Below are positions 7,824-12,778 of a stretch of DNA of 64,000 bases, piece after piece; within the stretch, counting starts at the first letter, position 1; each line of letters starts with the position of its first letter. Below the pieces are notes generated by a model. That model saw only the letters and a list, made by a program, of their open reading frames with translations. It searched no databases and was not told the origin of the DNA. The stretch lies in contig BAIF02000026.1 in the NCBI GenBank assembly GCA_000509105.1, forward strand, positions 1 through 64,000, given 5' to 3'. Both the position numbers and the translations under genes were made by a program. The DNA comes from Clostridiales bacterium VE202-21 (GTDB lineage: Bacteria; Bacillota; Clostridia; Lachnospirales; Lachnospiraceae).

Positions 7824-8432
7824 CTAAAACTTAAAAGTCCCCCGAAACCCATCCCACATCTGATCTTTCTCACTCAATATAAGCCCAGTCCCGTCTTCCA
7901 GCCGATACCCGTCAGCGGAAGCGCTGCCCCTATACTCGCCGGCCACCTGCGGCCAACAGATGCCGATCTCCGGGTCATTCCATGCAAGCCCGCCTTCATC
8001 GCCGGGGTGATAGAAATCCGTACATTTATAACAGAACTCTGCAACATCAGAAAGTACCAAAAATCCGTGTGCAAAGCCTTCCGGTATATAAAACTGCTTT
8101 TTATTTTCTTCGGTCAGCTCAACACCAAACCATTTGCCATAAGTTTCGGATTCGCTCCGCAGGTCAACGGCAACATCAAATACATGCCCCTTAATGACCC
8201 TTACCAGTTTTCCCTGGGGATATTCCTTCTGGTAATGGAGCCCGCGCAGTACGCCTTTGCTTGAACTGGACTGGTTATCCTGCACAAAATTCATGGCCAG
8301 ACCTGCATCCTCCATATCCTTCTGGTTGTAAGTTTCCATAAAATATCCCCTGGAATCGCCGTGGACGGCAGGTTCGATGATACAGAGCCCATGGATGCCG
8401 CCAACATTCTTTTCTACTTTAATCTGTCCCAT
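7824..8432 (-). CDS. rfbC: dTDP-4-dehydrorhamnose 3,5-epimerase
   Basis: Cupin-fold epimerase of 202 residues, converting dTDP-4-keto-6-deoxy-D-glucose to the L-lyxo epimer, third step of dTDP-L-rhamnose synthesis. Seen: HGDSRGYFMETYN near the N-terminus, LRGLHYQ with the catalytic His, KLVRVIKGHVFDVAVDLR, and IPEGFAHGFLVLSD. I chose the ATG at 8432 (MGQIKVEKN) because AGGAGGTAAAG precedes it; an upstream in-frame ATG would add 16 unlikely residues. It is the last gene of the rfbA-B-D-C operon, 102 bp after rfbD. Confidence 0.93.
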   Translation of the reverse strand: MGQIKVEKNVGGIHGLCIIEPAVHGDSRGYFMETYNQKDMEDAGLAMNFVQDNQSSSSKGVLRGLHYQKEYPQGKLVRVIKGHVFDVAVDLRSESETYGKWFGVELTEENKKQFYIPEGFAHGFLVLSDVAEFCYKCTDFYHPGDEGGLAWNDPEIGICWPQVAGEYRGSASADGYRLEDGTGLILSEKDQMWDGFRGTFKF

Positions 8433-8534
8433 CTTTACCTCCTGATATTGTTTCAATCCTTGTTGAAAGGCCAAAAACATTCTTTCGGCCCTTGTATAAC
8501 TAAGTTTATCTGCTCAGATCTCAGAACGTCTTTT

Positions 8535-9422
8535 CTAAAATTCAATTTCCTGTAAATATCTCCGCACGGCATCCTGCCATGTGGGGAGAAGTGTGAATCC
8601 ATTTTCTGTCAGCTTGCTTTTGTCCAGCCGGCTGTTGAACGGGCGTTCAGCCTTTGATATGCCGTATTCCTCCGTAGTAACCGGAATGACGTTCAGCCGC
8701 TCGGGAGAGTATTCCGGCCGCCCCATCTCAAAAGCCTGGCGGAAGATTTCCTTGGTGAACTCATACCAGCTGATGTATCCACCTTCGTTTGTTGCATGAT
8801 AGTAGCCGTATTTTTCTGTTTCAATCATATCTACTAATAATACTGCAAGGTCATAAGTATAAGTTGGAGTTCCGATCTGGTCGCTGACAACCTTTATGGT
8901 ATCATGTGTCTTGCCCAGATTCAACATGGTTTTTATAAAATTTTTCCCGTTTTTTCCAAATACCCAGGCGATACGGACAATAAAATATTTGTCCAGTGTC
9001 CGGGAAACAGCCAGTTCTCCGGCCAGCTTTGTCTTACCGTATACGCTCAGTGGTTTATAATCTGTACAATCCGGCTGCCACGGTTCTGTGCCCTGGCCGT
9101 CAAATACATAGTCGGTGGAGAGATAGAGCATTTTGCAGTCCAGATCCCTGCAGACATCCGCTATGTTCTGTGTTCCGACTGCATTAACCAGACGTACTTT
9201 TTCTTTGTTGTCTTCCTCCTCAGCGGCATCTACCGCAGTCCAGGCAGCACAGTGTATCACCGCATCCGGATTGGTTTCTCTGATCACGCTGTTTACGGAA
9301 GCTGCATCGGTAATATCCATTTCCTCAATGTCAACACCTACAGCTTCATGGCCCCGTTTCCTCAGTTCATTGACACAGTCATACCCGAGCTGTCCTTTAA
9401 CACCTGTTACTAAAACCTTCAT
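8535..9422 (-). CDS. rfbD: dTDP-4-dehydrorhamnose reductase
   Basis: Short-chain dehydrogenase family reductase of 295 residues, final step of dTDP-L-rhamnose synthesis. The N-terminal Rossmann motif is VTGVKGQLGYD. STDYVFDGQG is present and the catalytic YxxxK is YGKTKLAGE. The start at 9422 (MKVLVTG) is preceded by GGAGTGACTAT; an in-frame ATG six codons upstream is less likely. Lies 29 bp after rfbB in the same direction. Confidence 0.93.
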   Translation of the reverse strand: MKVLVTGVKGQLGYDCVNELRKRGHEAVGVDIEEMDITDAASVNSVIRETNPDAVIHCAAWTAVDAAEEEDNKEKVRLVNAVGTQNIADVCRDLDCKMLYLSTDYVFDGQGTEPWQPDCTDYKPLSVYGKTKLAGELAVSRTLDKYFIVRIAWVFGKNGKNFIKTMLNLGKTHDTIKVVSDQIGTPTYTYDLAVLLVDMIETEKYGYYHATNEGGYISWYEFTKEIFRQAFEMGRPEYSPERLNVIPVTTEEYGISKAERPFNSRLDKSKLTENGFTLLPTWQDAVRRYLQEIEF

Positions 9423-9451
9423 ATAGTCACTCCATTTCATTAAAAAACGAA

Positions 9452-10480
9452 TTATAATTCCTGGCGGTTCCCATACATTTGTTCATAATAGTTCTGGTAA
9501 TCGCCGGAAATAATGTTTTCCCACCAGTCTTTGTTATCCAGATACCACTGGATGGTCTTTTTGATGCCGTCCGCAAACTTTGTTTCCGGAAGCCAGCCAA
9601 GCTCATTATGGATTTTGGTTGGATCAATCGCGTAGCGCATGTCGTGGCCCTTGCGGTCTTCTACATATGTGATCAGGCTCTCTGGCTTGCCGAGTTCCTT
9701 ACAGATGATCTTAACAATATCAATGTTTTTCATCTCGTTGTGTCCGCCGATATTGTAGACTTCCCCCACGCGTCCCTTGTGGATGATTAGGTCGATTGCC
9801 TTGCAGTGGTCTTCGACATAGAGCCAGTCACGGACATTTTCTCCCTTGCCGTAGACCGGGAGCGGTTTGTCGTTTAACGCATTCGCAATCATAAGCGGAA
9901 TCAGTTTTTCCGGAAAATGATACGGCCCGTAGTTGTTAGAGCAGCGGCTGATGGTGACCGGAAGCCCATAGGTACGGTAGTAGGCCATTACAAGCAGGTC
10001 TGCTCCGGCCTTGGAGGAGCTGTAGGGGGAACTCGTGTGGATTGGCGTCTCCTCGGTGAAGAAGAGATCCGGTCTGTCCAGAGGCAGATCGCCGTATACC
10101 TCGTCGGTTGATACCTGATGGTAACGGGTGATGCCGTATTTGCGGCAGGCATCCATCAGTACGGCAGTTCCTTTGATGTTTGTATCCAAGAACACCTCCG
10201 GGTTCTCAATAGAACGGTCCACGTGGCTTTCAGCAGCAAAATTCACGACCATGTCAGGGTATTCCTCTTCGAATAATTTCTCCACTGCAGCGCGGTCTGT
10301 GATGCTTTCTTTTACAAAACGAAAATTCGGGTTATCCATTACAGGTGCGAGAGTAGAGAGATTGCCTGCATAAGTCAGACAGTCCAGGCAGATAATGCGG
10401 TAGTCCGGGTAGTTGTCTAACATATGGAATATAAAGTTGCTTCCGATGAATCCGGCGCCGCCGGTTACGATTATTGTCAT
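9452..10480 (-). CDS. rfbB: dTDP-glucose 4,6-dehydratase
   Basis: Extended SDR enzyme of 342 residues, second step of the rhamnose pathway (dTDP-glucose to dTDP-4-keto-6-deoxyglucose). Visible: NAD-binding TGGAGFIGSNF at residues 5-15, VNFAAESHVDRSIENP, STDEVYGDLP with the catalytic Asp-Glu pair, YSSSKAGAD with the catalytic Tyr and Lys, and SRCSNNYGPYHFPEKLIP. Its product could also feed the nearby DegT-family aminotransferase. Preceded by AGGAGACTATCACC. Confidence 0.95.
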   Translation of the reverse strand: MTIIVTGGAGFIGSNFIFHMLDNYPDYRIICLDCLTYAGNLSTLAPVMDNPNFRFVKESITDRAAVEKLFEEEYPDMVVNFAAESHVDRSIENPEVFLDTNIKGTAVLMDACRKYGITRYHQVSTDEVYGDLPLDRPDLFFTEETPIHTSSPYSSSKAGADLLVMAYYRTYGLPVTISRCSNNYGPYHFPEKLIPLMIANALNDKPLPVYGKGENVRDWLYVEDHCKAIDLIIHKGRVGEVYNIGGHNEMKNIDIVKIICKELGKPESLITYVEDRKGHDMRYAIDPTKIHNELGWLPETKFADGIKKTIQWYLDNKDWWENIISGDYQNYYEQMYGNRQEL

Positions 10481-10523: not shown

Positions 10524-11419
10524 TTAATGTAGGACATCCAGAAATTTTCCGTCCAGAACGTCCTTTAGATATTGGCCGTACTGGTTTTTCCTGAATATCT
10601 CATAGACCTCCAGAATGTCATCTTTGGTGATCCATCCGTTCATATAGGCGATTTCCTCCAGGCATGCAATCTTGCGGTGCTGGTGAGATTCCACCGTTTT
10701 AACAAAATTAGTGGCTTCCACGAGGCTCTCGTGAGTTCCGGTATCCAGCCAGGTGAAGCCCTGACCGAGCAGTTCCACATTCAAGCTGTTATTTTCAAGA
10801 TAGATACAGTTCAGGTCTGTGATCTCCAGCTCTCCGCGGATCCCTGGCGTCAGGCTTTTTGCGTATTCTACAACCTTGTTGTCATAAAAATACAGGCCGG
10901 TAACACAGTAGTTGCTTTTGGGTGCTGCAGGTTTTTCCTCTATAGAAATGGCCTTTCCTTCGTTATTAAATTCAACGATTCCAAAACGCTCCGGATCATC
11001 CACATAATAGCCGAAAATGGTGGCACCTCTGCCTGATTCTGCGTTTTCGACTGCAGCTTTCAGCCTTTTTTTCAGCCCGTGGCCGGCAAAAATGTTATCG
11101 CCGAGTACCATGCAACGGTATCATTTCCGATAAACTCTTCGCCGATGATAAACGCCTGAGCCAGACCGTCCGGGCTTGGCTGCACTGCGTAACTAAGCTC
11201 CACTCCGAACTGGTGTCCGTCGCCTAAAAGCTCCTTGAACCTGGGAGTATCCTGTGGCGTGGAAATAATTAAAATATCGCGGATGCCGGCATTCATGAGC
11301 ACGGACATCGGATAATAAATCATGGGTTTATCATAGATCGGCAGTAACTGTTTGGAGGTTACCATTGTCAGAGGATAGAGGCGCGTCCCCGAACCTCCTG
11401 CTAAAATAATTCCTTTCAT
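10524..11419 (-). pseudogene. rfbA: Glucose-1-phosphate thymidylyltransferase, frameshifted
   Basis: First enzyme of dTDP-rhamnose synthesis, making dTDP-glucose. The 5' part (to 11419) reads [18 protein letters not shown] with the nucleotide-binding loop and breaks after FIGNDTVA. The remainder continues in the next frame as [18 protein letters not shown] to [11 protein letters not shown]. Restoring one A at about 11111 (GCATGG to GCAATGG) recreates a standard protein of about 297 residues. Both halves are otherwise well conserved, so this is either a fresh mutation or a sequencing deletion. It starts the operon, about 64 bases after the predicted MerR-type promoter, with AAAGGAGATTTCTT as ribosome site. 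Confidence 0.9.
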
Positions 11420-11483: not shown

Positions 11484-11524
11484 GTGTATATTATAAAAGG
11501 TGACCTAAGGTCACCTTCAAGCCT
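11484..11524 (-). promoter_or_regulatory. MerR-type promoter/operator of the rhamnose operon
   Basis: On the minus strand there is a -35 TTGAAG (11515-11520), a spacer of exactly 19 bp and a -10 TATAAT (11490-11495). The spacer contains most of the perfect dyad AAGGTGACC-TTA-GGTCACCTT (11497-11517). A 19-bp spacer with a centred dyad is the known hallmark of promoters remodelled by MerR-family activators. The promoter faces rfbA, and a MerR-type gene ends 58 bp upstream. The dyad could also act as a hairpin terminator for that gene, but the exact promoter geometry favours an operator. Confidence 0.7.
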
Positions 11525-11581
11525 TTTCATAAATTCTTAAGAATTTTATGGAAAAAAACTCAGTTGGGCATGGATGAAGCA

Positions 11582-12778
11582 TTACTTTTTGGGAGTGCAG
11601 ATAAATAATCCGGCCTCCTTTGTAATATGAAACCCACCTGCTGTTTTCTTTTTTACAAATGCGCGGAATTCCGTATAATGTTCTGAAATATACTGATACT
11701 GGTTGCCGTGGCAGGAAAGAATATAGGAGATCAGCGGCTCCGGTTCCGGGATCAGCAGGGAGTCTTCGTAGAGTCTCCAGTCCGTTTCCGCAAAATATTC
11801 CTTTAGGATACCGGCGCCATTTTCAAGGCCAAATTTTTCATATAACTTGTCTGCCGAAAGCATGATTCTCTCGTCAAATTCATGTACAAGCCGGCTGACT
11901 TCCGCCATATGGCGGGAACTGTAGGCGCTGCACAAAAAGCGGCCGTCCGGTTTCAGAACACGCCGTACTTCGCTGCATACCTGTGGGATATCCTCGCAGT
12001 AGAAGAGCACATGGTTGGCAATAACCAGATCCAGGCTGTGCTCTTCGAAGGGAAGCCGGTGGCAGTCAAAGGCCTCAAAAGAAAAACGGGAGTCCTTTGC
12101 TCCAACAGCCCGGCGGGCATCCCGGAGCATTCCTTCAGAGATATCGGACAGTGTGATATGAACATGTGCCGGGAGTTTTGAAAGGTTTTCTTTCCAAAGT
12201 GTCCCGTCTCCGCATCCAATTTCAAGGATTTCCATTCCCGGCTCAATCCGGCACTGTTCACAGATCCATGGAAACCAGCCCTGTGGATTCTGGGAATATA
12301 GGCTGTGGAGATTGATTCTTGCAGAAATGTTAGAAGCATTCTGATACTGATTTTTCAAACTGCTTTCCATGCCGGTCAGATGGATGAGATTCAGCATCTG
12401 GCTCCAGTCAATGTTATGCTCCTTCTGAATCACTTCCGCGGTATCCTGGATTGCTTTTTCAACGAGCTGCATTTGCTCGATCCGATCCTGAACGAGCTTT
12501 AGCTGAATATGCAGTGAGTTCAGCATAAAGTGGTAATCGGAATCATTTATGGTCATCTGACGGATGTCATCCAGAGAGAAACCCAGGTACTTCAGCAAGA
12601 GAATCTGCTGAAGCCGCGCAAAATCGGCATCCGTATAAAAACGTGCTCCCGACTCTGTGACAAGAGAGGGTTTTAATATATCCTGTTTATCGTAATAACG
12701 GATTGTGCGCAGAGTGACATGAGCCATGCGCGCAAACTCACCGGAAGAATAGTAACCTGGCTTTTTCATTGCTTTCAT
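11582..12778 (-). CDS. MerR-type regulator fused to SAM-dependent methyltransferase
   Basis: 398 residues. Residues about 9-75 are a MerR winged helix (YYSSGEFARMAHVTLRTIRY, then the ESGARFYTDADFARLQQILL wing), followed by a coiled-coil dimerisation helix. Residues about 175-290 are a class I methyltransferase: motif I ILEIGCGDGTLW, an acidic TLSDISEGML, and the post-motif DLVIANHVLFYCEDIPQ. The methyltransferase sits where a ligand-sensing domain normally does, so SAM or a small substrate may be the signal. It lies directly upstream of the rhamnose operon and its MerR-like promoter, which suggests but does not prove that it controls it. Confidence 0.85.
   Translation of the reverse strand: MKAMKKPGYYSSGEFARMAHVTLRTIRYYDKQDILKPSLVTESGARFYTDADFARLQQILLLKYLGFSLDDIRQMTINDSDYHFMLNSLHIQLKLVQDRIEQMQLVEKAIQDTAEVIQKEHNIDWSQMLNLIHLTGMESSLKNQYQNASNISARINLHSLYSQNPQGWFPWICEQCRIEPGMEILEIGCGDGTLWKENLSKLPAHVHITLSDISEGMLRDARRAVGAKDSRFSFEAFDCHRLPFEEHSLDLVIANHVLFYCEDIPQVCSEVRRVLKPDGRFLCSAYSSRHMAEVSRLVHEFDERIMLSADKLYEKFGLENGAGILKEYFAETDWRLYEDSLLIPEPEPLISYILSCHGNQYQYISEHYTEFRAFVKKKTAGGFHITKEAGLFICTPKK

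Follow-up and report, generated by a model that had tools for sequence, protein, structure and literature searches.

All 28 MerR-type promoters that have been surveyed possess spacers of 19 to 20 bp and are activated by distortion of the DNA, with no contact to the polymerase (PMC7722741). Within the family, the specificity pair of highest significance joins position 14 of the MerR alignment to positions 6 and 13, which are symmetric in the site; the combinations K-C and K-G are over-represented, as is R-T on the right half of the site (PMC5045206). An arrangement of this kind was detected in the window, which is the whole stretch of 64,000 nucleotides analysed here. Judged by its sequence, it is a promoter of the sigma-A type in which a MerR-type dyad occupies the 19-bp spacer, and it is kept before rml genes in about 40 genera that share a particular regulator. 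The site is very probably the promoter-operator of the operon rmlA-B-D-C, under the predicted control of a MerR-methyltransferase encoded just upstream. The region contains the following features:

7824 to 8480, minus strand: rmlC, dTDP-4-dehydrorhamnose 3,5-epimerase (TIGR01221 above cut-off; the start may be further in)
8535 to 9440, minus strand: rmlD, dTDP-4-dehydrorhamnose reductase (TIGR01214 above cut-off)
9452 to 10480, minus strand: rmlB, dTDP-glucose 4,6-dehydratase (TIGR01181 above cut-off)
10524 to 11419, minus strand: rmlA (rfbA), glucose-1-phosphate thymidylyltransferase (NTP_transferase halves; alignment with the nearest relative)
11483, minus strand: probable transcription start, an A, 7 nt after the -10 element
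11490 to 11495, minus strand: -10 element TATAAT, separated from the -35 element by 19 bp
11497 to 11517, centre 11507, minus strand: dyad AAGGTGACC-TTA-GGTCACCTT, a perfect inverted repeat and predicted operator
11515 to 11520, minus strand: -35 element TTGAAG, with a conserved C just before it (11521)
11524 to 11527, minus strand: AAAA, an UP-element-like A-tract 5' of the -35 element
11582 to 12778, minus strand: regulator gene encoding the MerR-methyltransferase (Pfam MerR_1 and Methyltransf_11/25)

The minus strand reads ...gaaaaggcTTGAAGGTGACCTTAGGTCACCTTTTATAATatacacAcag... here, and the distance between TTGAAG and TATAAT, read directly from the sequence, is 19 bp (11514 to 11496). The spacer thus falls within the 19 to 20 bp required of MerR-regulated promoters, and the dyad is centred in it. 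Its two arms (11497 to 11506 and 11508 to 11517) comprise 10 nt each, are separated by the single central base 11507, and overlap the -35 hexamer by three bases. A perfect 9-bp dyad filling the spacer, as the sequence-only reading had put it, was therefore essentially right, except that the arms are one nucleotide longer and reach into the -35 element. A default promoter scan missed the promoter because only spacers of 16 to 18 bp are taken into account. A chance palindrome was ruled out by two results. The dyad is single-copy in the window at up to three mismatches, with 0.03 matches expected. Among the matches to TTG-N22-TATAAT in the window, it is also the only one with at least 7 of 9 complementary pairs, having all nine, while 100 rounds of dinucleotide shuffling applied to the whole window yielded one case with 7/9 and none with 8/9 or 9/9. 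In the 5.3-Mb genome, the dyad is single-copy at up to two mismatches, and further operator copies were not found at up to three.

The promoter lies 64 nt upstream of rmlA, whose start at 11419 is preceded by a good ribosome-binding site. Downstream, the gene order is rmlA-rmlB-rmlD-rmlC, so that all four genes of dTDP-L-rhamnose synthesis stand together as in known rml/rfb operons (equivalog-level matches). The promoter had been described as facing rfbA. It does so, but the gene is not intact: compared with the nearest relative, 1 nt is deleted at about 11112, which splits rmlA into overlapping open reading frames (11072 to 11419 and 10524 to 11111). A second, intact rmlA was not found in the assembly at E<=1e-120. 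The frameshift may be a real mutation, resulting in a strain without dTDP-rhamnose synthesis, or a sequencing or assembly error.

The regulator gene is located upstream of the promoter on the same strand and specifies a protein of 398 aa. The listed start (MKAMKKPG..., 12769 to 12778) is probably three codons early, since relatives begin with MKKxGYYSSGEF; the true methionine is perhaps at 12769. The one relative with a name, from Blautia wexlerae, is 75% identical and makes Lachnospiraceae the probable family of the window's host. The N-terminus is a MerR winged helix-turn-helix (residues about 10 to 75; Pfam MerR_1, E=6e-18), with 3hh0 (MerR family), MtaN, BmrR, and TipA as the best PDB matches to the N-terminal part. 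It is followed by a long helix (about 81 to 121), seen in an AlphaFold model that was built from a two-sequence alignment and is of poor overall confidence (pLDDT 42), by a class I SAM methyltransferase (about 180 to 300), and by a conserved C-terminal region. According to Pfam, the C-terminal domain is thus a SAM methyltransferase, unlike the usual effector-binding domains of MerR proteins. At least 95% of 43 relatives retain the motif of class I SAM-dependent enzymes, E186-x-G-C-G-x-G (E186, G188, C189, G190), along with D212 and D238, in keeping with a putative class I methyltransferase. Its nearest solved relatives include MitM and phosphoethanolamine methyltransferases, a likeness that does not point to a ligand. 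Stand-alone homologues of the domain exist as well.

To follow site and regulator through the family of the window's host, 299 genomes, one per genus, were searched. The regulator yielded matches in 49 of them at E<=1e-40, 43 being fused copies with at least 45% identity. A promoter-operator pattern matched in 37 genomes, and the reversed pattern, used as a control, in none of the 299. Pattern sites were present in 34 of the 43 genomes with the regulator at this identity versus 3 of 256 without it (Fisher p of about 6e-33, to be read with the fact that genera of one family are not independent samples). A weight matrix built from the 34 rml-linked sites was then run on the fetched loci. It detected sites in remaining regulator-bearing genomes with scores of 14.9 to 43.1, the known sites scoring 30.8 to 51.8 in a leave-one-out analysis. 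No similar site was present at 18 rmlA loci that lack a linked regulator (scores of 0.0 or less). Altogether, the promoter-operator was found in 42 of the 43 regulator-bearing genomes, 41 times before an operon containing rml genes. In the 42nd (G029), it precedes the regulator gene at a contig end, and the remaining piece of that gene is situated just before rmlA on another contig. The lone genome without the site (G174) is 76% complete and also has no rmlA match.

When the first loci were searched for the dyad only, 23 sites were obtained, and every one of them had TTG as well as a match to TATAAT in at least five of six positions, with the 19-bp spacing unchanged. Sequence features lying outside the search patterns are conserved as well among the 34 aligned sites: an A-tract in front of the -35 element at -9 to -5 (27 to 30 of 34), the C before TTG (32 of 34), and, seven bases past the -10 element, an A (30 of 34), which corresponds to 11483 in the window. 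Such features would be expected if the promoter works and transcription begins at a fixed position. The sequence-only reading had proposed a MerR-type promoter for the rhamnose operon under an unusual regulator, a start at about 11483, and a check for the dyad upstream of rfbA together with the MerR-methyltransferase gene in relatives, naming loss of the promoter spacing as an argument against it. The spacing is kept at 23 of 23 dyad-only sites, dyad and fusion occur together in 42 of 43 genera (in 41 before an rml-containing operon), and the predicted start coincides with the conserved A; the proposal as a whole gains support from the conserved pairing of site and regulator.

In its position, the site tracks rml, not the regulator gene. 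At 34 sites, rmlA or rmlB comes first downstream, and in operons beginning with rmlB the site stands before rmlB (L065, L086, L102). A separate rmlC in one genome has its own site (L075 in G046). The regulator gene, by comparison, may be found immediately upstream of the site, as in the window, L032, and others, divergent from it (L064 in G008), or 1.2 to 2.5 kb upstream (L065 to L068 and L072, in G043, G078, G179, G256, and G295). In G148 (L063), about 10 kb with divergently transcribed genes lie between the two, and in two genomes the regulator is on another contig than the site, which precedes rmlACBD in G265 (L149) and rmlD in G118 (L148). A sister branch often has the site in front of the regulator gene, with that gene at the head of the rml operon (L074, L083, L085, L088, L090). 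One further genome (L076 in G162) contains the site before rmlABDC, and no MerR-methyltransferase was detected in its 97%-complete assembly; this genome may have lost the regulator or replaced it, or the assembly may lack the gene.

Comparison of the operators with the recognition helices of the cognate proteins revealed a covariation. The operators of G042, G090, and G179 are of the type GTGCCC...GGGCAC, with C at -4 and G at +4, and the recognition helix is ITKKT. The other linked operators go along with R24 in helices of the V(T/S)xRT type. Hence, the change from A/T to C/G at +/-4 accompanies a change from Arg to Lys at residue 24, which we equate with position 14 in the MerR alignment of PMC5045206 after aligning the helix with GolS and CueR. 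The published site positions 6 and 13 would correspond to +/-4, as we infer from the consensus in that study, assuming that the central base is omitted. In the full tree, all Lys-Lys proteins group into a single clade (100/97), so the covariation probably reflects a single evolutionary event, yet the letters predicted by the rule appear in the predicted place. A GTGCCC operator was not found in G174, the 76% complete genome without an rmlA match mentioned above, which also encodes a Lys-Lys helix.

More distant fusions, 33 to 41% identical, are present in a second family of Clostridia. Those scanned (36 to 41% identity) have a related site about 25 to 100 bp before the fusion gene. Domain fusion and site are like those of the window, whereas the site precedes the regulator gene and two predicted sugar aminotransferases instead of rml: at four loci (L151, L152, L153, L155), the next two genes resemble DegT/DnrJ/EryC1/StrS aminotransferases, as tested by Pfam in three of them. 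At L154, an arginine deiminase follows instead. A second fusion with 39% identity occurs in G127 (L150), where the order is site, second dTDP-glucose 4,6-dehydratase, fusion. From the aminotransferase and dehydratase neighbours, the wider group of fusions seems to be linked to nucleotide-sugar genes, with L154 deviating. Within the window's own family, a second class of MerR-type promoters was recognized, with a GTGACGCAGCGTMAT-like dyad and a 19-bp spacer before another MerR gene (L077, L078, L079, L080); three or all four of these loci continue with genes for an ABC transporter ATPase and permease. Weak pattern matches in G003, G255, G067:C10, and G261:C10 were considered as counter-examples and dismissed, because they precede other MerR genes, three or more of which stand in MerR-ABC transporter operons; these matches were set apart as a separate regulon.

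Could the dyad be the intrinsic terminator of the regulator gene and its match to a promoter coincidental? It is located about 61 nt past the stop codon of that gene, and a transcript could form a 9-bp GC-rich hairpin followed by UUUUAUAAU. In other genomes, however, the site is located before the rml operon while being upstream of the regulator gene, in divergent orientation to it, at a distance of 10 kb, or on a different contig, which rules out a simple terminator of that gene and contradicts the alternative raised by the sequence-only reading that the dyad merely ends the MerR transcript. Moreover, the -35 and -10 elements and their exact spacing are retained at all 23 dyad-only sites. Complementarity of the arms is complete at +/-3, +/-4, and +/-6 across the sites, but at +/-2, +/-7, +/-8, and +/-9 pairing is lost in about a quarter of them with the promoter hexamers remaining, a distribution that fits protein half-sites rather than an RNA stem. 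Based on the site positions and this loss of pairing, the terminator was rejected as hardly conceivable; a side role of the dyad as a weak terminator in the window may exist.

That the promoter is a genuine MerR-type promoter bound by a different MerR protein, with the adjacent fusion as a bystander, appears very unlikely, if slightly less so. G162 carries the site with no fusion detected, and dyads of a related class go with another group of MerR proteins; the similar GTGACGCAGCGTMAT dyad serving a MerR-ABC transporter regulon in the same family indicates that other MerR proteins could cross-bind. Against this stand the joint occurrence of site and fusion in 42 of 43 genera, unlinked cases included, the bases at +/-4 of the operator, which follow the recognition helix of the fusion, and the similar site in front of the fusion gene itself in the other family. 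A variant compatible with control of rml by the fusion concerns the methyltransferase domain, which might be a working enzyme modifying, for example, a glycan precursor, with rml controlled mainly by repression. An intact SAM motif, the resemblance to small-molecule methyltransferases such as MitM, and the stand-alone homologues speak for it, but a 19-bp spacer with near-consensus hexamers is a hallmark of MerR activation by distortion, and the variant is considered improbable, although clearly less so than the bystander or the terminator.

Activation of the rml promoter by the MerR-methyltransferase, the preferred reading, could proceed as follows. A dimer of the regulator would bind the dyad via its MerR domains, and the promoter would be off or weak because the -35 and -10 elements are too far apart. 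Once the methyltransferase-fold domain has bound its signal, which might be SAM/SAH, a small molecule (perhaps a glycan precursor), or both, the dimer would kink the spacer and shorten it, allowing RNA polymerase to begin at about 11483 in the manner known for BmrR and CueR. Binding, the direction of control (activation or mainly repression), and the signal are inferences. In the branch represented by the window, the regulator would be expressed from a promoter without the dyad, and in the sister branch, the site before the regulator gene heading the rml operon would provide feedback.

In a broader sense, there is about an even chance that these proteins constitute a new one-component class, in which a MerR protein with a SAM-methyltransferase sensor ties the supply of the rhamnose nucleotide sugar to a metabolic or envelope signal, such as the SAM/SAH level or the methylation of a glycan intermediate, across the Lachnospiraceae, and in which a sister branch in other Clostridia controls sugar aminotransferases. 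Among the gut Lachnospiraceae, surface glycans rich in rhamnose can have immunological activity, e.g. the glucorhamnan of Ruminococcus gnavus, and the regulation of rhamnose precursor supply in these bacteria appears to be undescribed so far. Neither a MerR-type regulator for rml nor a description of this fusion was found in a search of the open-access literature. A control circuit for a cell-surface sugar in which both the sensor domain of the MerR protein and its target are unusual is therefore apparently undescribed. The circuit involves a single regulator, operator, and start site and makes a specific prediction for R24/K24 versus the base pair at +/-4, which renders it directly testable in vitro. 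If true, the methyltransferase-fold sensor would be a new type of effector domain for the textbook MerR family.

Among described regulators, those of the BmrR/MtaN/TipA type share with the protein studied here the N-terminal MerR winged helix, a separate C-terminal domain, a dyad in a 19-bp spacer, and, going by the low-confidence model, the long helix. Their C-terminal domain is GyrI-like or TipAS, whereas a class I SAM methyltransferase fold is predicted here, and their target is drug efflux, in contrast to the proposed target dTDP-rhamnose synthesis. With the metal sensors CueR, GolS, and MerR, the regulator has in common the operator geometry and the residue-base specificity rule, K with C/G and R with T at +/-4 (PMC5045206), but in place of their short metal-binding C-terminal part, it carries a full enzyme-like domain.
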